From the NCBI GenBank assembly GCA_002691385.1, contig NZHT01000129.1:1-38493 (forward strand): a DNA stretch of 38,493 nt, read 5' to 3'. Under the pieces are notes generated by a model, which saw only the letters and a list, made by a program, of their open reading frames with translations, was not told the origin of the DNA and did not search any database. The translations under genes and the position numbers were made by a program. This DNA is from Flammeovirgaceae bacterium (GTDB taxonomy: Bacteria > Bacteroidota > Bacteroidia > Cytophagales > Cyclobacteriaceae). Positions 1-10,966 of the stretch are shown here, in pieces (the stretch's first letter is position 1; each line of letters begins with the position of its first letter).

Positions 1-506
1 TCAGTAAGTATTTCACCTTCTTGAACAGCCGTGGCATAAAACCCATAAAAGAAATCGTCAATACCAACAGTTCTTCTTCCATTTAGTCCAGCAATTTCAA
101 CACTAGCATTTAGAGCAAGCATCACGGCAGGCTGATCATTGGCGGCATCTCCATGTGCCAAATTACCTCCCAAGGTACCAAAATTTCTCACTTGAGGATC
201 GGCAATTAGCTTAGCCACATCCGCAAAAATGGGGAAGTGCTTCGCTACATCAGCAGACTCCTCCGTTTCCACTTCACGGGTCATAGCCCCTATTTTGAGC
301 ATACCACCTTCAATTTTGAGATATGATAATTCTGGAACGTTATTAAGATCTATTAAATGTTCTGGTTCAGCGAACCTTAACTTCATCATTGGTATTAGTG
401 AGTGACCACCAGCAAGTATTTTGGCGTCATCTCCCAAATCCTGAAGAAGCTTAAGTGCTTCATCTAAATTGGATGGAGCAGTATAATCAAACGATGATGG
501 AATCAT
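1..506 (-). CDS. FAD-binding subunit of a molybdenum hydroxylase (CoxM/XdhB family), partial
   Basis: About 168 N-terminal residues are visible; the gene runs off the left edge and has no stop in the window. The ATG at 506 opens MIPSSFDYTAPSNLDEALKL. Next come the FAD-pyrophosphate-binding motifs of the PCMH-type fold: an AGGHSLIPMMKLR loop near residue 38 and TLGGNLAHGDAANDQPA near residue 112. In this family the medium subunit carries FAD and passes electrons from the [2Fe-2S] subunit to an acceptor. The small Fe-S and large Mo subunits should lie just outside the window. The Moco biosynthesis and XdhC genes that follow fit a molybdenum hydroxylase as the client enzyme. The substrate (CO, purine, aldehyde or other) cannot be told from this fragment. 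Confidence 0.9.
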   Translation of the reverse strand, partial: MIPSSFDYTAPSNLDEALKLLQDLGDDAKILAGGHSLIPMMKLRFAEPEHLIDLNNVPELSYLKIEGGMLKIGAMTREVETEESADVAKHFPIFADVAKLIADPQVRNFGTLGGNLAHGDAANDQPAVMLALNASVEIAGLNGRRTVGIDDFFYGFYATAVQEGEILT

Positions 507-647: not shown

Positions 648-677
648 AAAAAAATTAAATAAATTAATTTTATTTAA
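648..677 (-). terminator. Candidate intrinsic terminator of the BNR/MoaD-like operon
   Basis: A perfect 9-bp inverted repeat (655-663 against 669-677, 5-nt loop) overlaps the stop codon of the minus-strand BNR gene. On that strand it is followed by seven T residues (654-648). The stem contains only A and T, so it would be weak; the position and T-tract are the main support. Confidence 0.4.
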
Positions 678-1750
678 ATGATTTCAATTGCATTCACCTT
701 AGTTAAATGGGAAGAGATAAGTTGCCAGTACGGATCTTCATCTAAATTATAAAACAAATTTCCATTGGTAGTTCCGAAAATCATAAAGTTTTCTTTACGC
801 TTAAAACTTTTTCTCAGTACAATGTCAAAAGTATTTGTAGTTGGCAAACCCTTGCTAACACTTTTCCATGACTGCCCAAAATCCGAGGTCTCAAAAACTT
901 CCAATTTCAGATTAGGTGCTACTCGGCGCTGGTCACTTTCAACTGGAATGAACCAACTTCTGCCTGGATTTTTTTCATCTATAGCTAACGAAAAACCATA
1001 ACTCGATCTTCCTTTTTTTAAAAAAACTTCCTTCCACAATTGTCCTCCATTTTTGGTAAAATAAATTCCACAATGATTTTGCTGCCAAAGTACATTGGGT
1101 GATTTAGGGTGTATCAATAACTGATGAGGATCCTGACCAACCTCTACCTGAGGATTGGGCAAGTAAGTTGCCAATAACCCTTCATTCTTAGGCTGCCAAG
1201 AAGCCCCATTATCCAACGATTCAAAAATACCTGCACAACTAATAGCAACATATAAATGATTAGAATTATGCGGATTTACCACTATGGAATGAATAAACGG
1301 AAAATCACTGCCTGCTCCAAACCATTGACCTTTTTTTTGCCTACTAGCATGGTACCATAGGGGTTCATTTAGCTCAAATGTTACCCCGCCGTCAGTACTT
1401 GAAAACAAGCCTCCTGGCTCTGTTCCAAGCCAAAGTTTTACTGGATCAGCACCTGCACACTCCATACTCCAAATCTCCTTAAGCTTTGCAGGAGTTCCAT
1501 TAATCATTTTAAATCCCTGATATGAAGGTAATCTTGCCTCTACCCAAGAAAGCCCTTGATCATCCGAGTAATGAAGTTTTTGCCCCCAATGGCGATGCAC
1601 GATTCCCACCCACCATCTATCTGTGTGTACATCCACAAAAATCATACTTACTGAAAATCCTAAAAAATGAATAGCCAATTCCTTCGGTGCCATATTTGGC
1701 AGAATTTCATAAACTATTAAACCCTTCGAAGTTCCTATCAATACTTGCAT
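674..1750 (-). CDS. BNR/Asp-box repeat (sialidase-like beta-propeller) protein
   Basis: This is a 358-residue protein with at least five Asp-box turns of the S/T-x-D-x-G-x-x-W type: YSDDQGLSW, SSTDGGVTF, ESLDNGASW, FTKNGGQLW and ETSDFGQSW. They imply a beta-propeller of the WD40/YVTN/BNR-like superfamily, often auto-named exo-alpha-sialidase. I see no signal peptide and none of the arginine-triad context of true sialidases, so an enzymatic role is not supported. The ATG at 1750 is preferred to the TTG one codon upstream because it overlaps the stop of the MoaD-like gene (TGATG). Translational coupling to that gene, and through it to the 4-TM protein, suggests one functional unit. The function is unknown; a scaffold or a target of the ubiquitin-like protein are both guesses. 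Confidence 0.8.
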   Translation of the reverse strand: MQVLIGTSKGLIVYEILPNMAPKELAIHFLGFSVSMIFVDVHTDRWWVGIVHRHWGQKLHYSDDQGLSWVEARLPSYQGFKMINGTPAKLKEIWSMECAGADPVKLWLGTEPGGLFSSTDGGVTFELNEPLWYHASRQKKGQWFGAGSDFPFIHSIVVNPHNSNHLYVAISCAGIFESLDNGASWQPKNEGLLATYLPNPQVEVGQDPHQLLIHPKSPNVLWQQNHCGIYFTKNGGQLWKEVFLKKGRSSYGFSLAIDEKNPGRSWFIPVESDQRRVAPNLKLEVFETSDFGQSWKSVSKGLPTTNTFDIVLRKSFKRKENFMIFGTTNGNLFYNLDEDPYWQLISSHLTKVNAIEII

Positions 1751-2022
1751 CAACCACCTGACAAAGCCTGAAAAATCAATACCTCATCTCCCTCATTCAA
1801 GGTATCTGATAAGGTTTTACGATCTACCATCATTTCATCTCGCACAAAAATATTTACATGTTTTCTCAAACTCCCATCCTCTTCTAACAAATAATCTTGC
1901 ATGCCCGGGTAAATAGATTCGATTGAGGTGATGATCTCTTTTATGGAAGCCCCCTCTAATTCCTGTGCTATTAAATCAGGAAAAAATTGCTTCAATGCAG
2001 ATGTGAATTTTACTTTTATCAA
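1750..2022 (-). CDS. MoaD/ThiS-family ubiquitin-like small protein
   Basis: This 90-residue beta-grasp protein ends in ALSGG, the free C-terminal Gly-Gly that MoeB/ThiF enzymes adenylate and thiocarboxylate. The central LRKHVNIFVRDEMMV stretch resembles the MoaD/SAMP-like small-modifier branch more than classical MoaD, whose usual tail is PPVSGG. A second, more canonical MoaD lies at 10307-10549, next to MoaE, so this copy probably serves another purpose: sulfur carrier for a different product, or protein modifier. The start is TTG at 2022, overlapping the stop of the upstream 4-TM gene (TTGA); no suitable in-frame ATG exists. It sits in a three-gene operon with the 4-TM and BNR proteins. Family membership is secure, the role is inference. 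Confidence 0.85.
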   Translation of the reverse strand: MIKVKFTSALKQFFPDLIAQELEGASIKEIITSIESIYPGMQDYLLEEDGSLRKHVNIFVRDEMMVDRKTLSDTLNEGDEVLIFQALSGG

Positions 2023-2456
2023 TTTAAAATATCAGGATTTAGCGTTTTCCTTATTTTATTTAAAATTGAGATTAAACTGCCATTTAACCAAATACCTAAT
2101 AATAATAAAACTGCACCTAAATTGTAAAAACCAGATGATAATATAAGTTGATGGGTCAGCAATAAAAAGGTAAATCCAATCATAGCAACTATGAGCGCTT
2201 TTACAGTACGCTCACCTCTCCAATTTAATAATAGCATTAAATTGATAAATAATGCCAAAACAAGAGGGACGTAAGAAACCCAATTATTCGACGTAAGATA
2301 CATATCAGGGCCTCCACAAATCGTAATCGCACTGGAATAGGCCATAACACAAAAAGGACATTTAGGCAAAATAATCAATAAAAAAGTGCTCACCACCGAA
2401 GCGCTGCTTGCTTTATTGATCTTCTTTGAGGAATAACAGTTGCAATTACTTAACAT
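2019..2456 (-). CDS. Small cysteine-rich 4-TM membrane protein, MerC-like in outline
   Basis: The 145-residue protein begins with a short polar segment carrying two cysteines (MLSNCNCYSSKK). A first membrane helix follows, ending in a CPFC pair (LPKCPFCVMAYSS) and a further Cys in TICGG. Three more hydrophobic segments lie at roughly residues 60-80, 88-105 and 113-130. The early CxxC pair beside a helix, the four-helix length and the lack of other domains recall MerC-type metal carriers. I cannot show homology, and a thiol-redox or metal-handling role is only a suggestion. It is first in the operon with the MoaD-like and BNR genes. The ATG at 2456 faces xdhC across 61 bp, so the two genes probably have divergent promoters. 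Confidence 0.65.
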   Translation of the reverse strand: MLSNCNCYSSKKINKASSASVVSTFLLIILPKCPFCVMAYSSAITICGGPDMYLTSNNWVSYVPLVLALFINLMLLLNWRGERTVKALIVAMIGFTFLLLTHQLILSSGFYNLGAVLLLLGIWLNGSLISILNKIRKTLNPDILN

Positions 2457-2517: not shown

Positions 2518-3531
2518 ATGAAAGACTTAAACGAAATCATTAGTGACTGGAGCCAAAATGGTGCGGTCTTGGTCCTTGCCCGTGTTGTGAAAACATGGGG
2601 CTCCTCTCCTCGCCCCATCGGTTCCATGATGATTATTAATGAAGAACAAAAAATGTCAGGTTCCGTAAGCGGTGGTTGTGTAGAAGGTGCGATAGTCAAA
2701 AAATCGCAAACTCTTTTTACCCAACACAAAGCAGAAAAACTTTCTTTTGGAGTCAGCGATGAAGAAGCCTGGTCTGTTGGATTGTCTTGTGGAGGGAATA
2801 TTGAAGTTTATTTGCAGACGGTTGACTTTTCATCAAATGAAGTTTGGCACTCTTTTTTAAAAACTAGGCTCTCAAATCAATCATGTATTTTAGTTTCTAA
2901 TTTAAATAAAAATGAAAATTGGTTAATTGAAGAAAATGGTGCTGTCACAGGCACGTCGCTTTCCCCCGTACTCATCAAGGAGGCACAAAATGCTTTTAAT
3001 GAAAGGGTCCATAAAACCCTCAACTTTGAAGGGCAAAACTATTTTATTCAAGTATTTCCTAGAAAACCTACCCTACTCATCATTGGAGTTGCACATATTG
3101 CAGTTGACTTAGTTACTATGGCACATATGCATGAGTTCGAGACTACAATAGTAGATCCTAGAGGTTATTTTACTAAAAATACATATTTTAATACCGAACC
3201 TTCTCAAATTTTTGAGGCTTACCCATCCGAAGTGCTTAATCAGTTAACATTAGATCCTTATACTTTTTGTGCCATTCTTTCCCATGACCCCAAAATAGAT
3301 GACAATGCTTTAGAAATTTTACTCCCCTCTAAAGTCGCCTATATTGGTGCTTTAGGCAGTAAAAAAACCCATCAAAAAAGAATAAAGCGACTGATTAACA
3401 AGGGGATTTCTCAAGATTTAATTTCGAAAATTCAAGCACCGATAGGTATACATATTCATGCCAAATCAGCTAAGGAAATTGCCTTAGCTATCATGAGTGA
3501 AATTATTAAATTCAAGAATCAGTATCAGTAA
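2518..3531 (+). CDS. xdhC: XdhC/CoxI-family molybdenum cofactor insertion protein
   Basis: The 337-residue protein has the two XdhC domains. The N-terminal XdhC/CoxI domain shows GSSPRPIGSMM near residue 28, SGGCVEGA near 52 and GLSCGG near 88. The C-terminal Rossmann-like domain starts around residue 184 (TLLIIGVAHIAVDL) and continues with VDPRGYF and IGALGSKKTH. XdhC proteins bind mature Moco, help its sulfuration together with a NifS-type cysteine desulfurase, and deliver it to xanthine-dehydrogenase-type apoenzymes. That agrees with the FAD subunit at the left edge and the cysteine desulfurase at 8.7 kb. The gene ends at 3531 and abuts the convergent moeB gene with no intervening base, so any terminator must lie inside moeB. 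Confidence 0.92.
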   Translation: MKDLNEIISDWSQNGAVLVLARVVKTWGSSPRPIGSMMIINEEQKMSGSVSGGCVEGAIVKKSQTLFTQHKAEKLSFGVSDEEAWSVGLSCGGNIEVYLQTVDFSSNEVWHSFLKTRLSNQSCILVSNLNKNENWLIEENGAVTGTSLSPVLIKEAQNAFNERVHKTLNFEGQNYFIQVFPRKPTLLIIGVAHIAVDLVTMAHMHEFETTIVDPRGYFTKNTYFNTEPSQIFEAYPSEVLNQLTLDPYTFCAILSHDPKIDDNALEILLPSKVAYIGALGSKKTHQKRIKRLINKGISQDLISKIQAPIGIHIHAKSAKEIALAIMSEIIKFKNQYQ

Positions 3532-4680
3532 TTATATCAAAAATAAATCGGCATCAACTTCTTCCCTCCAAGCCAATAAACCTCCTTTAAGGTGTCTTAA
3601 ATTGGAATAGCTAGCCCAGAGGGTAGCTATGTTTTCTACAGCTTGTGCACTTCTTTTTCCTGATTTACATAAGAAAACAATTGGCCTATTTTTATCAATC
3701 AAGTTCACAGATGCCGTTAATTTTTTCAAGGGAATCAATTCCCCACCAATATTCCCCCCATCAAACTCATAGGCTTCCCTGACATCAATTAATTGAAAAT
3801 CGTGATCTTCTCGAAGCCATCGAGCGAGTTCCATTGGTGAAAGATCAATCAAGTCATTCGAATCATTAGTAATCCCACAAAAAGAATCATAATCAATCAA
3901 TGCCTTAATTGTGGGGTTTTTACCATTCAGTGGGTTTTTTGGATCTCTTTTGATATTCAGCATACGATTAGAGAAGTCCAGAACATCTATTAGGAACAGT
4001 CTTCCAGATAAAGAGACTCCCATATTCGTAATTACCTTAATCACCTCAGAAGCTTGAATGGATCCTATAATCCCAGGCAATACACCCAAAACTCCTCCTT
4101 CGGCACAGTTAGGGATCATTCCTGGAGGAGGAGGCGTTGGGAATAAGTCCCTATAATTGGGCCCCAAAACACCTTCCTTACTCGTCCAATTAAAGACACT
4201 GACCTGCCCTTCAAACCGATATATAGAAGCATAAACATTGGGTTTGCCCATTAAAACACATGCATCATTTACTAGATAACGAGTAGGAAAATTATCTGTA
4301 CCATCGGCTACCACATCGTAATTACTTATAATCTCCAAGGCGTTAGACGCATCCAATTTTAAATTATGCTCAATGAAATGAACGAACGGATTTTGCGTTT
4401 GTAATTTGGTTATCGCAACCGTCGTTTTAGATTTACCTATATCTTCCATTCCGAAAAGTACTTGCCGCTGCAAATTACTCTCATCAATGATGTCAAAATC
4501 AACCACACCAATAGTCCCTACACCCACAGCCGTCAAATATTGCAGCAGGGGTGCGCCTAATCCTCCCGTACCCACTACCAGTACTTTTGCATTTTTTAAT
4601 TTTTCTTGCATAGCTATGCCAAAGTCTGGCAAATTCAAATGCCGACTATAGCGAAGTTTTTCTTGATTTGATAATGCCAC
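3532..4680 (-). CDS. moeB: MoeB/ThiF-type E1-like adenylyltransferase fused to a rhodanese domain
   Basis: This 382-residue protein starts with GTG at 4680. Residues 1 to about 250 are the E1-like domain: GTGGLGAPLLQYL nucleotide loop, DFDIIDESNLQRQ, DGTDNFPTRYLVND and PNCAEGGVLGVLPG. Residues from about 280 form a rhodanese domain with active-site loop CKSGKR. Such fusions adenylate the C-terminal glycine of MoaD/ThiS-type proteins and deliver persulfide sulfur to make the thiocarboxylate. The zinc-site cysteines of E. coli MoeB are absent: the GPCYRC segment reads GPNYRD here, and the CEVC segment has no cysteines. I believe this is common in Bacteroidota homologues. Two MoaD-type partners occur in the window. 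The gene is divergent from moaC with an 80-bp gap. Confidence 0.93.
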   Translation of the reverse strand: MALSNQEKLRYSRHLNLPDFGIAMQEKLKNAKVLVVGTGGLGAPLLQYLTAVGVGTIGVVDFDIIDESNLQRQVLFGMEDIGKSKTTVAITKLQTQNPFVHFIEHNLKLDASNALEIISNYDVVADGTDNFPTRYLVNDACVLMGKPNVYASIYRFEGQVSVFNWTSKEGVLGPNYRDLFPTPPPPGMIPNCAEGGVLGVLPGIIGSIQASEVIKVITNMGVSLSGRLFLIDVLDFSNRMLNIKRDPKNPLNGKNPTIKALIDYDSFCGITNDSNDLIDLSPMELARWLREDHDFQLIDVREAYEFDGGNIGGELIPLKKLTASVNLIDKNRPIVFLCKSGKRSAQAVENIATLWASYSNLRHLKGGLLAWREEVDADLFLI

Positions 4681-4760
4681 CTTAAAGTACTATTCTTCCT
4701 GACTAAAAACTTGAAATGGTTTTGTATCTTACCATTAATTTAGTGACAAAAAACATAAAG

Positions 4761-5240
4761 ATGAAAAAAAAATTTTCGCATCTCACCAAAAATGGCGAAC
4801 CCACCATGGTAGATGTTTCAGGAAAGGGCCTATCCCATCGCATAGCCACCGCGCGCTCAATAATTGTTTTGGCACCTGAAATTTTGGAACAATTTAAAAA
4901 GAAGGAAATTCATACAAAGAAGGGTCCTGTATTTCAAACCGCCATATTGGCTGGGATCATGGCTTCTAAAAAAACCAGTGACCTGATTCCCTTGTGTCAC
5001 CCCCTTGCTCTAGACAGCTGTACAGTTTCGATTGATCTTAATAGTAAAGAAGAAGTAGAAATTATCTGTAAGGTTAAAACCTCTGGAAAAACGGGCGTAG
5101 AAATGGAAGCCCTGACTGGTGCCTCAGTTGCTGCACTTACTATTTATGATATGTGCAAAGGCTTCTCTAATCACATCCTTATCAAAGAAACACGATTGCT
5201 CGAAAAAACAGGTGGAAAAAATGACTTCAAAATCACATAA
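4761..5240 (+). CDS. moaC: Cyclic pyranopterin monophosphate synthase MoaC
   Basis: MoaC converts the MoaA product (3',8-cH2GTP) to cyclic pyranopterin monophosphate. The 159-residue length is typical. The conserved active-site segments are present: MVDVSGK near the N-terminus, LIPLCHPL near residue 75, KTGVEMEALTGAS near 112 and IYDMCKG. The ATG at 4761 (MKKKFSHL) gives the usual N-terminus; the reading frame stays open further upstream, but that extension does not resemble MoaC. The last bases overlap the ATG of the MobB-MobA fusion, so the two form an operon. The gene is divergent from moeB. Confidence 0.96.
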   Translation: MKKKFSHLTKNGEPTMVDVSGKGLSHRIATARSIIVLAPEILEQFKKKEIHTKKGPVFQTAILAGIMASKKTSDLIPLCHPLALDSCTVSIDLNSKEEVEIICKVKTSGKTGVEMEALTGASVAALTIYDMCKGFSNHILIKETRLLEKTGGKNDFKIT

Positions 5241-6339
5241 AAAACATGCTCTTTTAACCAAGCCAAAGGGTGGTTCATTCAGTCAGCAGGAACTCGCACT
5301 TATAGGCGCACCTTGCAATATCATCGAAAATTTATGCTCCCAATTAGCGACTCAATTGAAAACCGAATACGCTATAGGGTATGCCGATGCCTCTCATCAA
5401 AATGAAACTGCACCTTCAGCATTTAGGACCTCCTATACAGATCTGATAGGCCAACATGGTGTGCACTTTAAGCACGACTACATAACTACTCATTTTCGAG
5501 CATTATTCAATGATTGCGATCTAGTACTTATCAATGGCAACCATTTCTTGGCCAAAAGCCAAATAGTAATTATCAACGAACAAAAAAAAACCTCGCTTGA
5601 AAAAAAATTAGATCGCCTTTCTGATGTAAAACTCTTTATCCTAGATGATGGAGTTGAAGATCTATTCCCCTTTCTTAAAATACACATCAAAAAATATAAA
5701 GAAATACCCCTACTTTCAATCAAAGATGTGGACGGCATAGGAAAGATGATTAAAAAAATCATGGATTCCTATTCGATACCTCTCAAGGGACTGGTTTTAG
5801 CTGGAGGTAATAGTACCCGAATGGGACATGATAAAGGTGCCATCAACTATCAAGGTAAAGCACATCGGGAGTATCTGGCGGACCTTTTGAACGATTTTTG
5901 TAAACATACTTATCTATCGATTCAAAACAAATCGATAGATTTCCAGACGCAATATTCAACTATTCCTGATGCTTTTTTAAATTTAGGCCCTTACGGCGGC
6001 ATTCTTTCGGCGTTCAAGAAAGATCCCAATAGTGCTTGGCTCGTAGTGGCTACGGATCTCCCCTTTTTAGACGCAAATACAATAACCCTCTTGATAAAAG
6101 GGCGAGATAGATCCAAAATGGCTACTTGTTTCCATAATCCAGAAACAGCCTTTCCAGAACCCTTATTAACCTTATGGGAACCAAGAGCCTATCCAATCCT
6201 TTTGCAATTTCTAGCGTATGGTTATTCATGCCCTAGAAAAGTATTAATCAACAGTGATATCAAGGAATTACCAATACACAATGTGGACACCCTACGCAAT
6301 GTCAACACTCCCGAAGAATTAAAAGTTGTCAAGAGCTAA
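5221..6339 (+). CDS. mobA: MobB-like/MobA fusion: molybdenum cofactor nucleotidyltransferase
   Basis: The protein has 372 residues when started at the ATG inside the end of moaC. Residues about 188-372 are MobA: LAGGNSTRMGHDKG (nucleotide-binding signature), NLGPYGGILSAF and VVATDLPFLD (metal-binding Asp). MobA attaches GMP to Moco; relatives such as MocA attach CMP for molybdenum hydroxylases, and that would fit this locus better. Residues about 9-182 resemble MobB: DLVLINGNHF with IVIIN matches DLILVEGFKH, and IPLLSIKDVDGIGKMI matches the MobB C-terminus. Where MobB has its Walker A loop (GTGKTT), this protein reads LIGAPCNIIENL, so the P-loop is lost. The N-terminal domain probably keeps a structural or cofactor-handling role without GTP hydrolysis. 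The gene converges on moeA across 46 bp. Confidence 0.9.
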   Translation: MTSKSHKKHALLTKPKGGSFSQQELALIGAPCNIIENLCSQLATQLKTEYAIGYADASHQNETAPSAFRTSYTDLIGQHGVHFKHDYITTHFRALFNDCDLVLINGNHFLAKSQIVIINEQKKTSLEKKLDRLSDVKLFILDDGVEDLFPFLKIHIKKYKEIPLLSIKDVDGIGKMIKKIMDSYSIPLKGLVLAGGNSTRMGHDKGAINYQGKAHREYLADLLNDFCKHTYLSIQNKSIDFQTQYSTIPDAFLNLGPYGGILSAFKKDPNSAWLVVATDLPFLDANTITLLIKGRDRSKMATCFHNPETAFPEPLLTLWEPRAYPILLQFLAYGYSCPRKVLINSDIKELPIHNVDTLRNVNTPEELKVVKS

Positions 6340-6385: not shown

Positions 6386-7594
6386 TTAACCGTGAATTAA
6401 ATTTCTATAGGCAATAAAGGGGAAAACTTCCCCCTTACGAAAGTCATTGCGATCAGAGGGCAATTGAATAAAAGCATCGGCATCAACCAAATTAGCCAAG
6501 TCTCCAGATCCATTACCCTTGACGGGATATGCTTTTATTTTTCCAGAAGGATGAAATATAATTTTGACTTCCAAAAAATAAGTGAGGTCTGGTTTGAAAT
6601 GAACATCTTCGACCAGTTCAGCCCAAGGTAATTCCGTTTTTGATGACTGCAAGGAACGATCCAACCAAGGTTTAAAGTATTGCTGGGCGCACATAAAACT
6701 AGAAACTGGATTTCCAGGAAAGGCAAAGATCAGTTTGTTATCTTTTTTTCCAAACCAAAAAGGTTTTCCCGGGCGCTGTTTCACTTTGTGGAAGAGTTTT
6801 TCTACACCTATGGCAGACAGTGCCTCAGGTAAATAATCAAACTTCCCAGCAGATACCCCTCCACTGAGCAAAATCAGATCATAATCAGTGATCTCGCTTT
6901 CTAATCTTTTGACAATTTCGTTGAAATCATCATTCAAGTGCATGACCGATGGCTGAATTTTATAACTTTCCAAAACGGTAGCAATTCTGTAAACATTACT
7001 TCGCCTTATTTGATGAGATAAAGGGGTTTGATCAATATCTACCAATTCATCTCCACTAGAAACAATCAAAGTTTTAGGTAAACGACTCACCGATATTTTA
7101 TTTTTACCTACAGTAGCGCAAACGCCAACCTCACTTGCAGAAATACATTTACCTGATGAAAGAATAACTATTCCTTGATGACGATCACTACCTTTAAAAT
7201 GAATGTTTTGATTACGGTAAAGATTGGATAACAAGACCGTTGCCTTGCCCTCTTCGATCTCAAGGTCTTCATAACGAACCACTACATCTACCCCTGTCGG
7301 AACTATGGCTCCCGTCATCACTTCTAAACAAGATGAAGGATCCTGCAACTCCTTTTGTAGGCCTCCTGCAGGTGCCTCTCCTTTGATTTCAAAAACTCTC
7401 TGACCCCTCTCAAATTGATCAAAATTTAAGCCAATGCCATCCATAGTCACTCGATTGAAGGGTGGAAAATCTCGATCAGCCACAATTTCTTCTTGTAGGA
7501 TTCTCCCTAATGACTGATCTAAAGAAATTTCTTCTGTCCCCCAATGACCCAAATGGGCAAATACAATTTTCAAAGCATCTTCAACAGCAATCAT
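6386..7594 (-). CDS. moeA: Molybdopterin molybdenumtransferase MoeA
   Basis: MoeA inserts molybdate into adenylated molybdopterin to give Moco. The 402-residue protein has the MoeA layout: an N-terminal segment with FPPFNRVTMDGIGL (PPFxxSxMDGYA in relatives), a linker domain with EVMTGAIVPTGVDVVVRYED, and a MogA-like domain with LLSGGVSAGKFDYLPEAL. After that come KQRPGKPFWFG and FAFPGNPVSS, which form the molybdate and pterin pocket. The C-terminal domain IV ends around VFPFIAYRN. It lies 2 bp downstream of moaA and is surely cotranscribed with it. No separate MoaB/MogA adenylating protein is visible in the window, so that step must be encoded elsewhere. Confidence 0.96.
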   Translation of the reverse strand: MIAVEDALKIVFAHLGHWGTEEISLDQSLGRILQEEIVADRDFPPFNRVTMDGIGLNFDQFERGQRVFEIKGEAPAGGLQKELQDPSSCLEVMTGAIVPTGVDVVVRYEDLEIEEGKATVLLSNLYRNQNIHFKGSDRHQGIVILSSGKCISASEVGVCATVGKNKISVSRLPKTLIVSSGDELVDIDQTPLSHQIRRSNVYRIATVLESYKIQPSVMHLNDDFNEIVKRLESEITDYDLILLSGGVSAGKFDYLPEALSAIGVEKLFHKVKQRPGKPFWFGKKDNKLIFAFPGNPVSSFMCAQQYFKPWLDRSLQSSKTELPWAELVEDVHFKPDLTYFLEVKIIFHPSGKIKAYPVKGNGSGDLANLVDADAFIQLPSDRNDFRKGEVFPFIAYRNLIHG

Positions 7595-7596
7595 AA

Positions 7597-8583
7597 TTAA
7601 CCTCCTATAGTGGCCATAGATTCCGATGCAGAGATGGTTGCAGACCTACTTTTTTCAGCTTCAAAACCGTCTTTAGCTCGTTTGCCAACCACCTTAATTA
7701 AATGATCTCCCAAAATTTCATCTGTCACACCTCCTCTGACCAAATCTCTAAAATTTACTTGCCCTTCTCCATAAAGACAGGTCCTAAGCGTTCCCTGCGG
7801 TGTGAGGCGAATTCGATTACAAGAACCACAAAAAGTTCGAGTATAGGCCGGGATGATTCCAAAAGAACCAACATAACCGGGTATTTTATAATTTGAAGAA
7901 GTAGAAGCAGGGAGATCGACCATTTTTTTATAACTGTATTTCTTTTCTATGTAAGACATTATTTTTTTGGCTGGCCAAATAGTGGCATTACCCTGACCCT
8001 CAGTCCCATTAAAGGGCATTTCTTCAATAAACCGTACCGATACATCATCATACTTAGTCAACTCTAGCATCGGATAGATATCTTCAATATTTCGGCCATC
8101 CATGACTACCATATTCGTTTTAACCTTTATTTTTGAGTCCACTAATTTTCGATAAGTCGACATCACCTGATCAAACAAATCTCTTCGAGTTATTTCAAAA
8201 AATCGCCGACTGTTCAAACTGTCTAAGCTAAGGTTTACACTTTTAATACTCATTTTTTCCAATGCCGATATTTCATCCAAAATAAAAGTCCCGTTCGTAG
8301 TAATATTAATCTCTGTGATAGTTTTTAATTCCGATATCCCTTTCAAAAAAGACATAATCCCCTTCCTCACAAATGGCTCTCCACCAGTGATCCTGATTTT
8401 GGAAATTCCCAAATCTCCAAAAACGCGAATCAATCGAGTCATCTCCTCAAAACTCAAGAGATCCTTCCTATTCATGTATTTGATCCCATTTTCGGGCATA
8501 CAATAAAAGCATCTCAAATTACAGCGATCCGTGATGGCTAGTCTGAGATAATTTATTATCCTTCCATGATTATCAATGAGCAT
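7597..8583 (-). CDS. moaA: GTP 3',8-cyclase MoaA (radical SAM)
   Basis: MoaA starts Moco synthesis by a radical rearrangement of GTP using two [4Fe-4S] clusters. The radical-SAM cysteines are C21, C25 and C28 (CNLRCFYC). The C-terminal cluster that binds GTP is formed by C252, C255 and C269 (FCGSCNRIRLTPQGTLRTC). GGEP near residue 67 binds SAM. The protein (328 residues) ends in MATIGG, the conserved Gly-Gly tail needed for activity in this family. It is the first gene of the moaA-moeA operon. The upstream region (8584-8736) is shared with the divergent cysteine desulfurase gene and contains a 10-bp inverted repeat. Since MoaA needs two clusters, the nearby SufS-SufU pair might also help to supply them. 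Confidence 0.97.
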   Translation of the reverse strand: MLIDNHGRIINYLRLAITDRCNLRCFYCMPENGIKYMNRKDLLSFEEMTRLIRVFGDLGISKIRITGGEPFVRKGIMSFLKGISELKTITEINITTNGTFILDEISALEKMSIKSVNLSLDSLNSRRFFEITRRDLFDQVMSTYRKLVDSKIKVKTNMVVMDGRNIEDIYPMLELTKYDDVSVRFIEEMPFNGTEGQGNATIWPAKKIMSYIEKKYSYKKMVDLPASTSSNYKIPGYVGSFGIIPAYTRTFCGSCNRIRLTPQGTLRTCLYGEGQVNFRDLVRGGVTDEILGDHLIKVVGKRAKDGFEAEKSRSATISASESMATIGG

Positions 8584-8621: not shown

Positions 8622-8659
8622 AAAATACTAGTTTGATTTTATTGAAAATCTAGTATTTT
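8622..8659. repeat. Perfect 10-bp inverted repeat in the moaA / cysteine desulfurase divergent region
   Basis: AAAATACTAG at 8622-8631 is repeated as CTAGTATTTT at 8650-8659 with an 18-nt spacer. It lies between two divergent Moco operons, where a shared operator would be expected. On the minus strand, TAGATTTT inside the right part of the repeat resembles a -7 box, with a TTTG 17 nt upstream. In DNA this AT-rich a few such repeats are expected by chance, so only the location makes it notable. Confidence 0.4.
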
Positions 8660-8736
8660 TAAAGTTAAACAAAAATTCAATCAAAAAGGTCCGAAGCCAT
8701 TTTCCTATTTTTGAGGCACATCCAAATTTAGTATAT

Positions 8737-9879
8737 TTGGATAACGCTGCCACTACGCAGCGGGCTAAATCCGTGGTCGCCGCACAATCTCAATTTGATC
8801 TTTATGAAAATGCTAATATTCATAGGGGTATCTATGATTTATCTAATCAAGCCACACAAAAATTTGAAAATACTCGAACTAAAATAGCTCAATTTTTAAG
8901 TTCGAATAATGCCAATACCGTCGCTTTTACCCAAGGTACTACTGCATCCATCAATATCGTGGCTCAATCTTTTTTAGCCCCAAAATTAAAATTTGGTGAT
9001 AATATAGTCACTACAATTATGGAGCATCATGCCAATTTCATTCCATGGCAAATGCTCGCTCAAAAGTATCAGATTGAATTAAGAATAGTCCCAATGGATA
9101 AAAATGGTGATCTTGACTTGATTCAATTGAAAAGCTTAATTGATCGGAAAACTCAACTTTTAGCAGTTTCTCATATCTCCAACACTTTAGGCACTATCCA
9201 TCCAATCGATGAAATCATTGGAATTGCTAAAAGTAGTGAAATCCCTGTCTTGGTTGATGCAGCACAAAGCGCCTGCCATTTTGAAATCGGTGTTGACCCA
9301 TTAAATTGTGATTTTTTAACTTTTTCAGGACATAAAATGTTTGGCCCTTTTGGCGTAGGAATCCTACAAGTTTCAGAAAAATACGTTGAAGACATGATCC
9401 CTTATAATTTTGGTGGTGGAATCATTGAAAATGTCCAGATTAAAAAAACAAATTTTCGTAATTTTCCACACAATCTTGATGCAGGTACGCCCAATGTCTC
9501 TGGAGTAATAGGTTTAGCCGCTGCCTTGAAATTTATTTCTGAGATCGGTAAATCCAATATGGAAAGTCATATAAATAAATTAACCCTTTTGGCTCTGGAT
9601 CAATTGTCGCAAGTTTCGGGTATTGAAATTATTGGTAATCCTAAAAAGAGGATCGGTATTATTTCATTTAATTTGAAAAATATACACCCCCATGATGTAG
9701 CCTCTTTTTTAAACAAAGATGGTATCGCCCTTCGGGCAGGTACGCACTGTACCCAGCCTCTTCTTAGTGCTATGGGATTACATGCTACGGCCAGGGTTTC
9801 GTTTTCAATTTATAATAATGAAGAAGACATTAATACTCTTATTGTGTCTCTAAAGGAATTAATGAAATTTTGGTCATGA
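8737..9879 (+). CDS. sufS: SufS-type (group II) PLP-dependent cysteine desulfurase
   Basis: This family takes sulfur from cysteine and holds it as a persulfide. Counted from the TTG at 8737 (380 residues), the PLP lysine is K200 in FSGHKMFGP and the persulfide cysteine is C338 in RAGTHCTQPL. H319 in HPHDV is spaced exactly 19 residues before C338, like His342 of Bacillus subtilis SufS, which swaps for a zinc ligand of SufU. The TTG is the only standard start codon in frame, but family similarity extends upstream: SHFPIFEAHPNLVYLDNAATT reads through from about 8680, back to a stop at 8629, with no ATG/GTG/TTG in frame. The true start may be ATT or ATC (8641, 8680 or 8707). The gene overlaps sufU and is followed by moaD and moaE, so a sulfur supply for molybdopterin is likely. 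Confidence 0.9.
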   Translation: MDNAATTQRAKSVVAAQSQFDLYENANIHRGIYDLSNQATQKFENTRTKIAQFLSSNNANTVAFTQGTTASINIVAQSFLAPKLKFGDNIVTTIMEHHANFIPWQMLAQKYQIELRIVPMDKNGDLDLIQLKSLIDRKTQLLAVSHISNTLGTIHPIDEIIGIAKSSEIPVLVDAAQSACHFEIGVDPLNCDFLTFSGHKMFGPFGVGILQVSEKYVEDMIPYNFGGGIIENVQIKKTNFRNFPHNLDAGTPNVSGVIGLAAALKFISEIGKSNMESHINKLTLLALDQLSQVSGIEIIGNPKKRIGIISFNLKNIHPHDVASFLNKDGIALRAGTHCTQPLLSAMGLHATARVSFSIYNNEEDINTLIVSLKELMKFWS

Positions 9880-10310
9880 CAAAACAAGAACTTCAACAAT
9901 TGTTTAAAAGTGAAATCTTACCTGAAAATGACAATCCATATCATTTTCAGGAACCTCAAAAAGCCTCCTTTTCAATTGAAGCAAATAATACCATGTGTGG
10001 AGATAAATACACCCTTTATTTTGATATAAACGAAGGTCAAATCACCTCTGTTTATTTTTATGGTATCGGTTGTGCATTATCAAAAGCTTCAATCTCTATA
10101 ATGTGCAAAAATATAGAAGATTTGAGTGCAAAAAATATAATGGCCTTGAGCAACAAATTTATCGATGGAATGAAGCAAAATCATTCAATTGAGCATAGTG
10201 ATAAAAAAATTCAAATGCTCCATCAGTTAAAACATTTTGATGGCCGAGTCGATTGTATCAAATTAGGTTGGGAAGCTGTGAAAAATCATTTTGAAAATAC
10301 TGAATTATGA
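9876..10310 (+). CDS. sufU: SufU-type Fe-S scaffold / zinc-dependent sulfurtransferase
   Basis: This 144-residue protein aligns along its length with B. subtilis SufU. The metal ligands are visible: MCGD (Cys and Asp) near residue 40, GIGCALSKASISIM near 65 and RVDCIKLGWEAV near 125. Between the second and third ligand it has the SufU-specific insertion (SNKFIDGMKQN and so on), which separates it from IscU. In Firmicutes, SufU accepts persulfide from SufS at a zinc site. The ATG at 9876 overlaps the desulfurase stop (ATGA), and the gene's own stop overlaps the moaD ATG (ATGA). This four-gene coupling suggests that sulfur flows to MoaD, to MoeB-rhodanese or to the Fe-S clusters of MoaA. Which of these is right cannot be told from sequence. 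Confidence 0.88.
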   Translation: MTKQELQQLFKSEILPENDNPYHFQEPQKASFSIEANNTMCGDKYTLYFDINEGQITSVYFYGIGCALSKASISIMCKNIEDLSAKNIMALSNKFIDGMKQNHSIEHSDKKIQMLHQLKHFDGRVDCIKLGWEAVKNHFENTEL

Positions 10311-10549
10311 AAATAAAGCTGGTTACTTTTGGTATCGCTAAAGAAATAATAGGAGCTCCTGAATGTAATTTGGAAGTGAAAGTTCCCTGTAACATTGGTG
10401 ATTTAAAACAAATATTAATGACACAATACCAGGAATTCAAAAAGCTTCAAAGTATCAAATTCGCTATTAATGAAAATTATCAAGAAGATCACTTTCTACT
10501 CCATGAAGGAGATGAAGTCGTCATTATACCACCTGTCAGTGGAGGTTAA
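10307..10549 (+). CDS. moaD: Molybdopterin synthase sulfur carrier subunit MoaD
   Basis: MoaD is the small subunit of molybdopterin synthase; its C-terminal glycine is thiocarboxylated and provides the dithiolene sulfur. The 80-residue protein has the beta-grasp pattern (KIKLVTFGIAKEIIGAP at the N-terminus, GDEVVIIPPVSGG at the C-terminus). The PPVSGG tail is canonical. It is coupled to sufU upstream (ATGA) and to moaE downstream, whose ATG follows the stop directly. Being beside moaE, it is the main MoaD; the MoaD-like protein at 1750-2022 is the second, divergent copy. Confidence 0.95.
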   Translation: MKIKLVTFGIAKEIIGAPECNLEVKVPCNIGDLKQILMTQYQEFKKLQSIKFAINENYQEDHFLLHEGDEVVIIPPVSGG

Positions 10550-10966
10550 ATGAGAGATATTCAAATTCTAGAAACTCCTTTGAATACACAGTCATGTCAT
10601 GACGCAGTGGCAGATCCTGCTGCTGGGGGCATTGTAGTTTTTGTGGGCGTAGTAAGGAATCAAACAAAAAGTCGAAAAGTTGTACAACTAGTGTTTGAAT
10701 CTTATGTCCCCATGGCCCTCAAGGAAATAGATAAAATTGCAGATACACTGTACCAAAAATGGGGCATTTTACATGTGTCCATCCATCATCGGATTGGTGT
10801 ATTGGAAATTGGGGAAATTCCAGTCATCATTGCTGTATCTACACCTCATAGACAAGCAGCTTTTGAGGCTTGTCAATATGCCATTGACACTTTAAAAAAA
10901 ACGGTCCCAATTTGGAAAAAAGAAATTTTTGAAAATGGTACAGTTTGGGTTTCTGCTCATCCCTAA
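10550..10966 (+). CDS. moaE: Molybdopterin synthase catalytic subunit MoaE
   Basis: MoaE is the large subunit that transfers two sulfurs from MoaD thiocarboxylate to cyclic pyranopterin monophosphate. The 138-residue protein shows GGIVVFVGVVRNQT near residue 25, LVFESYVPMALKE near 50, HHRIGVLEIGE near 80 and STPHRQAAFEAC near 99. The catalytic lysine segment LKKTVPIWKKE lies near residue 117. Its ATG begins one base after the moaD stop; GGAGG at the moaD C-terminus can act as a strong ribosome-binding site, which is unusual for this genome. It ends the recognisable part of the operon. Confidence 0.96.
   Translation: MRDIQILETPLNTQSCHDAVADPAAGGIVVFVGVVRNQTKSRKVVQLVFESYVPMALKEIDKIADTLYQKWGILHVSIHHRIGVLEIGEIPVIIAVSTPHRQAAFEACQYAIDTLKKTVPIWKKEIFENGTVWVSAHP

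Follow-up and report, generated by a model that had tools for sequence, protein, structure and literature searches.

We analyzed a stretch of 38,493 nucleotides from Flammeovirgaceae bacterium (assembly GCA_002691385.1, contig NZHT01000129.1), hereafter the window, in which the genes of a group II cysteine desulfurase (sufS2) and of a SufU protein lie directly ahead of moaD and moaE. By analogy with described desulfurase systems, we favor on balance the reading that this second SufS-SufU pair, apart from the SUF machinery, would supply the terminal sulfur of the molybdenum cofactor (Moco) for XdhC-dependent molybdenum (Mo) hydroxylases. The reading builds on direct observations: the gene order, the residues and predicted fold of the pair, a separate SUF operon in the same genome, a distinct SufU clade, the co-occurrence of SufU with one XdhC subfamily (phi 0.94), and the absence of the pair from relatives that keep moaD and moaE.

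The sufS-sufU-moaD-moaE unit and the separate SUF operon

The four genes of the unit are:

8737..9879, plus strand: sufS2, group II cysteine desulfurase (TIGR01979 at 485.6 bits, over the cut-off of 475.1; stop codon TGA at 9877-9879)
9876..10310, plus strand: sufU, zinc-type sulfur relay protein (PF01592; metal ligands; fold match 6jzv)
10307..10549, plus strand: moaD, small subunit of molybdopterin synthase (ThiS at 44.0 bits; C-terminal GG)
10550..10966, plus strand: moaE, large subunit of molybdopterin synthase (PF02391 at 134.2 bits)

ATGA overlaps join sufS to sufU and sufU to moaD, and the moaE ATG at 10550 abuts moaD. Together with the coordinates and the family models, this confirms the overlapping or abutting plus-strand unit described in a sequence-only reading of the window. 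We took ATG 9876 as the sufU start (the mechanical frame call begins at TTG 9870). The true N-terminus of SufS lies upstream of 8737 and of the first in-frame TTG, by about 19 codons. Its conserved part (...KVRSHFPIFEAHPN) is readable from about 8680, and no in-frame ATG, GTG or TTG was found for it in window positions 8632-8737; an ATT/ATC-type codon or another mechanism may be used.

The scores of ThiS/MoaD, MoaE and NifU_N (41.4 bits) all exceed the Pfam cut-offs, and moaE has only one match in the genome. MoaD, which ends in PPVSGG, reaches 59.0 bits with TIGR01682, below the cut-off of 66.15. SufU scores 86.6 bits with the NCBIfam equivalog TIGR01994, just below its cut-off of 92.5; it is thus a divergent member by sequence, and we do not claim the Fe-S function of that model for it. 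SufU residues 6-137 align nearly gap-free with Bacillus subtilis SufU (1xjs/5xt5), so the SufU insertion is present. The ligands C41, D43, C66 and C127 (C128 in B. subtilis) and R124 are all there, and they are invariant in 106/106 distinct sequences of the SufU clade described below. The AlphaFold model (predicted local distance difference test score 91.6) has B. subtilis SufU 6jzv as its top PDB match, with a template modelling score of 0.83. The claim of a SufU with all metal ligands and the insertion is therefore borne out. In SufS, His319 precedes the persulfide Cys338 by 19 residues (numbering from 8737), as had been noted; the pyridoxal phosphate Lys is present, and the closest solved relatives are SufS structures.

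The genome of the window (2.96 Mb, 129 contigs, 90% complete) contains a separate SUF operon, sufB-sufC-sufD-sufS-sufE-sufT, on contig C45, and an IscS-like desulfurase on contig C54. The two SufS proteins are 42% identical, and NifU_N (PF01592) matched the genome once, at the window SufU. The window pair is thus not the only SUF desulfurase of the genome, the situation in which the sequence-only reading would have made it the housekeeping one.

Gene neighborhoods and the SufU clade

A protein search of 98 genomes, including that of the window, matched SufU in 17: the own genome, 9/9 other members of the genus, 7/50 others of the family, and 0/38 labeled as the same order. In all 10 genomes of the genus, moeA and moaA lie on one strand and sufS, sufU, moaD and moaE follow divergently on the other. 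The concern that the linkage might not be conserved in related genomes is thereby removed.

We then considered 295 genomes of the family, many of them metagenome-assembled genomes (MAGs). SufU is found in 58 of them, in 20/84 genera, and was not found in 237. SufS adjoins SufU (<60 bp) in 56/58; of the two exceptions, SufS of G118 is separated from SufU by more than this distance, and the contig of G098 begins at SufU. Neighbors were labeled by BLAST and by hidden Markov models built from the genes of the window and their matches. In none of the 58 genomes did the 8 kb around SufU show a sufB, sufC, sufD, sufE or sufT gene, so that location in a SUF operon, a feature by which SufU membership is judged, is seen at none of these loci. 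Mo genes (moa/moe/mob/xdhC/cox) lie within this distance in 42/58, and a Mo gene or a gene for a BNR-repeat protein in 50/58. By class, moa/moe/mob genes were counted in 38 genomes, XdhC in 25, the BNR gene in 25 and cox genes in 8, all of these counts being lower bounds as some contigs are short. Among the 16 loci without a Mo gene, eight have a BNR gene. Clear negatives for Mo genes, with >=7.9 kb of sequence on each side of SufU, are G117, G163, G214, G285 and G301, and also G170 and G174, where a BNR gene is present. In G243 and G160, SufU matched more than once, and one copy per genome was counted; the second copy of G243 (L267) lies beside xdhC, moaD and coxM. For the unlinked SufUs, we found no link among their neighbors (chlorophyllase-like, GcpE, GPP34, epimerase).

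The idea that the pair does housekeeping work or supplies sulfur in general, and came to lie next to moa genes by chance, could draw on its consisting of a group II desulfurase and a complete SufU. However, the genome encodes an IscS-like desulfurase in addition to a separate SUF operon that includes SufS and SufE, SufU was not found in 237/295 family genomes, and the gene order held throughout the genus is accompanied by Mo links in other lineages. We consider this idea very improbable and rejected it, since the second SUF operon contradicts it.

A wider genome scan found 99 relatives, of which 80 were evaluated. Of these 80, 77 carry Bacteroidota titles (Cyclobacteriaceae, Flammeovirgaceae, Saprospiraceae and others), mostly MAGs; a few are named strains or genera. 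Among the latter, the cultured Fulvivirga sp. M361 (L083, G282) and Agaribacillus aureus (L136, G136) carry both the pair and the XdhC type of the window, Portibacter marinus (L124) has the pair beside moaDE, and Roseivirga is a further name. The nearest relatives of the window are titled Flammeovirgaceae bacterium UBA4465 and uncultured Cyclobacteriaceae. The other three titles are one Clostridiales and two Roseobacteraceae, the latter taken for misbinned MAGs. We classed 79 loci (L101 was dropped as no frame passed the rules; L073-L081 are of the genus of the window): 60 by Mo or BNR genes, 17 with neither within the DNA examined, one with both Mo and SUF labels, and one SUF locus, that of the Clostridiales. 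In L102, L104 and L112, the labeling of a SufU neighbor as MobA carries little weight as evidence. As for SufU on plasmids, the one annotated region examined (L299, Azospirillum) is an ordinary SUF operon.

In a sample of 395 genomes of the phylum, 184 genomes matched SufU, 72 of them at E <=1.6e-25, including four in the class of the window; the other 112 (best 2.9e-8 or weaker) were taken for IscU relatives. The best-scoring 29 phylum loci besides the window comprise 27 SUF operons, with sufD or sufT beside SufU, and two Mo-linked loci (L166, L173). The earlier statement that Bacteroidota SUF systems use SufE therefore holds for the genome of the window but not for the phylum.

In a quick IQ-TREE tree of 159 SufU rows, the 28 SUF-operon rows form one group (Shimodaira-Hasegawa-like approximate likelihood ratio test, SH-aLRT, 84). 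The window SufU belongs to a clade of 128 rows, separate from the SUF-operon SufUs (SH-aLRT 99, branch 0.52), in which 102 rows are Mo-linked, 25 have no labeled neighbors and one has both labels. By a 70% rule, only alignment positions 36, 73 and 76 separate Mo-linked from SUF-operon SufU. The SufU of L146, which owes its Mo label to a neighboring XdhC, falls outside the clade and scores as an ordinary SufU. This locus has an XdhC-like neighbor and no labeled SUF genes, possibly through a separate recruitment or as a chance neighbor.

XdhC-bound Moco or MoaD as the possible sulfur acceptor

To describe co-occurrence in the 295 family genomes, we give the numbers of genomes with both proteins, with SufU only, with the other only and with neither. 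A route dedicated to molybdopterin predicts that SufU follows MoaE, which is present in 258 genomes; the observed 55/3/203/34 (phi 0.11) shows that it does not. A search with the window XdhC separated 58 genomes at >=187 bits from the next at 133 bits, a clear gap. SufU and this window-type XdhC are distributed as 55/3/3/234 (phi 0.94), compared to 57/1/185/52 (phi 0.21) for SufU and any XdhC_C domain. With SufS adjoining SufU as described, a genetic tie between desulfurase and XdhC of the NifS4-XdhC type is therefore present. In the 55 co-occurring genomes, the two genes lie within 20 kb in 27, at 55 kb-1.9 Mb on one contig in 6, and on different contigs in 22, some of the latter due only to broken drafts. 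Physical linkage explains part of the co-occurrence, not all of it.

Six genera are polymorphic for SufU (g16, g18, g37, g48, g85 and g96). Among their species, 9 have both SufU and window-type XdhC, none has only one of them and at least 43 have neither; a seventh variable genus, g111 (G201, 58% complete, with neither), was left out of this comparison. In SufU-negative genomes of these genera, G291, G153, G045 (g37), G111, G216 (g96) and G226 (g18), moaA lies divergently from moaD-moaE with no sufS-sufU, G045 having one other frame in between. G207 (g16) and G100 (g85) also have moaD-moaE without the pair. Since the moaDE locus stands without it, SufU-negative genomes presumably make molybdopterin with another sulfur donor. 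Five XdhC copies from four SufU-negative genomes are all only 23-25% identical to the window XdhC. Four of them are longer (392-398 amino acids), three lying beside IorAB-like genes, and the G291 copy (319 amino acids) lies beside coxM/coxL-like genes.

These results divide the main proposal of the sequence-only reading, a dedicated sulfur route for molybdopterin. The assignment of the pair to the molybdenum pathway stands, but MoaD as its target is less well supported, given the MoaE distribution and the moaDE loci that lack the pair. Among the three targets listed beforehand (MoeB-rhodanese/MoaD, XdhC-bound Moco and MoaA clusters), XdhC-bound Moco is the best supported.

MoaD supply would mean that SufS-SufU charges the rhodanese Cys of MoeB, from which sulfur reaches the MoaD thiocarboxylate and the two dithiolene sulfurs of molybdopterin. 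The overlapping operon favors it, as does MoaD directly downstream of SufU (same strand, <100 bp) at 20/60 SufU frames. In 34/58 genomes, the 8 kb around SufU include MoaD or MoaE, and the order moeB-moaD-moaE-sufS-sufU occurs in 12/16 SufU genomes of genus g88. The MoeB sequences examined keep the rhodanese loop, and MoaD ends in GG. However, 203/258 MoaE genomes have no SufU, SufU-negative members of the same genera retain moaA and moaD-moaE, and at some SufS-SufU loci (L234, L238, L245 and L254) the neighbors are Mo-hydroxylase genes or xdhC-coxDE, with neither moaD nor moaE in the surrounding 8 kb. The MoeB rhodanese domain was rejected as a discriminator, as it is present with SufU and, loop included, in two SufU-negative MoeB proteins (L275, L298). 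Overall, MoaD supply is the main rival reading; we regard it as unlikely, at perhaps one chance in a few. A pair serving both the XdhC-Moco and the MoaD steps would fit all the data.

Another possibility is that the pair is a local Fe-S system for clusters of the pathway (MoaA, CoxS). SufS-SufU is an Fe-S system in B. subtilis according to passages of PMC8300815, and moaA is the divergent neighbor at many loci. However, none of the 58 loci has SUF genes nearby, the genome carries a full SUF operon, and SufU-negative relatives keep moaA without the pair. MoaA would also not explain the tie to one XdhC subfamily. This makes a local Fe-S role improbable.

Relatives of the window show a link to CO dehydrogenase. 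In three of them (G003, G002 and G007), coxM-coxS-coxL-coxG-coxD-coxE and an XdhC follow on from the cluster. The G003 CoxL scores 1217.7 bits with TIGR02416 (cut-off 991.15), and AYRCSFR, a motif that we take to mark form I CO dehydrogenase, is found in this locus (L156). The window coxM is 93% identical over 168 residues to the coxM of the L156 operon. CoxL at >=80% identity was found in 20/58 SufU genomes, 3/237 others and 8/10 genomes of the genus, counts that may be low because scoring was limited to three candidates per genome. With 20/58, CoxL is ruled out as an obligate partner of SufU. The XdhC after coxE in G003 carries a C-terminal YHS domain (L156 5840-6808). This XdhC/YHS protein is a possible counterpart of CoxF, to which passages of PMC4240915 ascribe copper delivery in CO dehydrogenase maturation. 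At L234, L238, L243 and L245, SufS-SufU and a divergent BNR gene are followed by coxS-coxL, a Mo-hydroxylase arrangement of its own; CoxL in G155, G164 and G189 is 41-42% identical to the CO dehydrogenase CoxL.

Several points weigh against XdhC-bound Moco as the target. Near SufU, XdhC (25/58) is met less often than MoaD or MoaE, and in the g88 genomes with the moeB-moaD-moaE-sufS-sufU order XdhC is often distant. Window-type XdhC occurs without SufU in G017 and G115 (81-83% complete) and in G020 (97%), and SufU without window-type XdhC in G118 (99% complete), G189 and G211; all six belong to genera other than the polymorphic six. Most of the positives in the polymorphic genera are drafts of many contigs, the firmest being G321 (2 contigs) and G282, Fulvivirga sp. 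M361. The association statistics ignore kinship, and we place no reliance on their Fisher P values; transfer of the genes together as one cluster may account for part of the co-occurrence. In the SufS tree, whose deep branches are weak, the Mo-linked SufS proteins do not all group together. A persulfide Cys special to SufU-linked XdhC was looked for and rejected: in 32 versus 14 sequences, the conserved Cys 54 and 91 (window XdhC numbering) are common to other XdhC proteins. Finally, G006 (99% complete, same genus) has SufU and window-type XdhC with no CoxL match, so the pair should serve other hydroxylases too. No CoxL match was obtained in the own assembly either, which is 90% complete and in which the contig ends inside coxM.

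The proposed route, known systems and the rest of the window

In the route that we favor, SufS would take sulfur from cysteine onto Cys338. SufU would dock on SufS by zinc-ligand exchange at His319 and would carry the persulfide off on a zinc-ligand Cys. The Moco held by the window XdhC would then receive the terminal sulfur needed by xanthine-oxidase-family enzymes, before or during its entry into a Mo hydroxylase, with CO dehydrogenase as a candidate in the 8/10 genus genomes that have it. We infer the relay because B. subtilis SufS-SufU works in this way, and the target because of the NifS4-XdhC system of Rhodobacter capsulatus. More tentatively, and a little short of an even call, the Bacteroidia SufU clade as a whole may have left Fe-S assembly and may act as a zinc-based carrier of persulfide in a Moco sulfurase. 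SufU, loaded by SufS, would then sulfurate the cofactor on one XdhC subfamily, including provision of the Mo-Cu bridging sulfur of CO dehydrogenase.

According to passages of PMC8300815 and PMC8931425, group II desulfurases such as SufS act with a specific acceptor, which is SufU in B. subtilis; zinc-ligand swapping appears in the title of a paper cited in PMC11446229. The window pair resembles B. subtilis SufS-SufU (5xt5, 6jzv) in both families, the fold, the zinc ligands, the persulfide Cys and the exchanged His. It differs from that system, assigned to Fe-S assembly in passages of PMC8300815, in that the window-type SufU loci have no SUF genes within 8 kb (58/58), a separate SUF operon uses SufE, and the SufU forms its own clade.

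Passages of PMC2997495 state that NifS4 of R. capsulatus binds to XdhC and sulfurates the Moco on it. We propose the same kind of function for the window pair, a desulfurase that works with XdhC as the one giving xanthine dehydrogenase its terminal sulfur does. However, those passages describe NifS4 as acting directly, mention no SufU carrier and call it apparently essential for viability, whereas here a SufU carrier would act within an extra pair. The same passages present Arabidopsis ABA3, likewise a desulfurase dedicated to Moco sulfuration; unlike the window pair, it is a single desulfurase-MOSC fusion. The CoxD/CoxE/CoxF maturation of Oligotropha carboxidovorans also has parallels, as relatives of the window have coxMSL, coxG, coxD, coxE and XdhC/YHS beside the cluster. 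For CO dehydrogenase of O. carboxidovorans, passages of PMC4240915 call the sulfur source unknown and do not name SufS-SufU.

If MoaD supply held instead, the transfer from IscS to MoeB/MoaD in Escherichia coli, described in passages of PMC8300815, would be the equivalent step, although the E. coli route uses the general desulfurase IscS, unlike the separate window pair. The title of Buhning 2017, cited in PMC11446229, restricts E. coli SufS to Fe-S. A desulfurase-like protein near selenium-dependent Mo hydroxylases, probably a selenocysteine lyase according to passages of PMC2276186, belongs to a different family, TIGR01977. In a literature search of open-licence papers, we found none that links SufU to Moco.

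SufU is known as an Fe-S protein, and a clade of it that serves molybdenum enzymes would mean a clear switch of function within a family that has been studied closely. The pair would be a candidate sulfur donor for Mo in XdhC-dependent hydroxylases and CO dehydrogenase, and the finding may bear on producing CO dehydrogenase-type enzymes in other hosts. Passages of PMC13203968 include marine Bacteroidota among potential CO oxidizers. The XdhC subfamily offers a marker, and many genomes are available for studying Mo-linked SufU. For annotation, the neighbors of sufS-sufU in Bacteroidia should be checked before an Fe-S role is assigned to these genes.

The other genes of the window cluster are:

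7597..8583, minus strand: moaA, divergent from sufS2 (Mob_synth_C and Radical_SAM)
6386..7594, minus strand: moeA (PF03453/PF00994/PF03454)
5119..6339, plus strand: mobA-like gene, start uncertain, frame overlapping moaC (NTP_transf_3 at 85.7 bits)
4716..5240, plus strand: moaC (PF01967 at 171.9 bits)
3532..4680, minus strand: moeB-rhodanese (ThiF and Rhodanese; active-site loop CKSGKR)
2518..3531, plus strand: xdhC, of the subfamily co-occurring with Mo-clade SufU (XdhC_C and XdhC_CoxI)
2019..2456, minus strand: small membrane-like protein (no Pfam match; recurs beside xdhC in relatives)
1750..2022, minus strand: second MoaD-like protein, C-terminal GG (ThiS at 34.3 bits, SAMP1-like)
674..1753, minus strand: BNR-repeat protein, BNR/sortilin-like (recurs beside SufS-SufU and XdhC)
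3..506, minus strand: coxM, flavin adenine dinucleotide subunit of a Mo hydroxylase, truncated by the contig end (PF00941)

Elsewhere in the genome there are two Mo-hydroxylase large subunits (C106 and C29) and one copy of a molybdopterin oxidoreductase, which we read as FdhF/YdeP-like. On C106 (L161), the Mo hydroxylase lies beside ABC transporter genes; this contig looks foreign and may be assembly contamination. The BNR protein may help to assemble Mo hydroxylases. The second MoaD-like protein, whose gene adjoins that of the BNR protein, is nearer to the SAMP1 and moaD_arch models and is possibly a separate sulfur carrier or a protein modifier.

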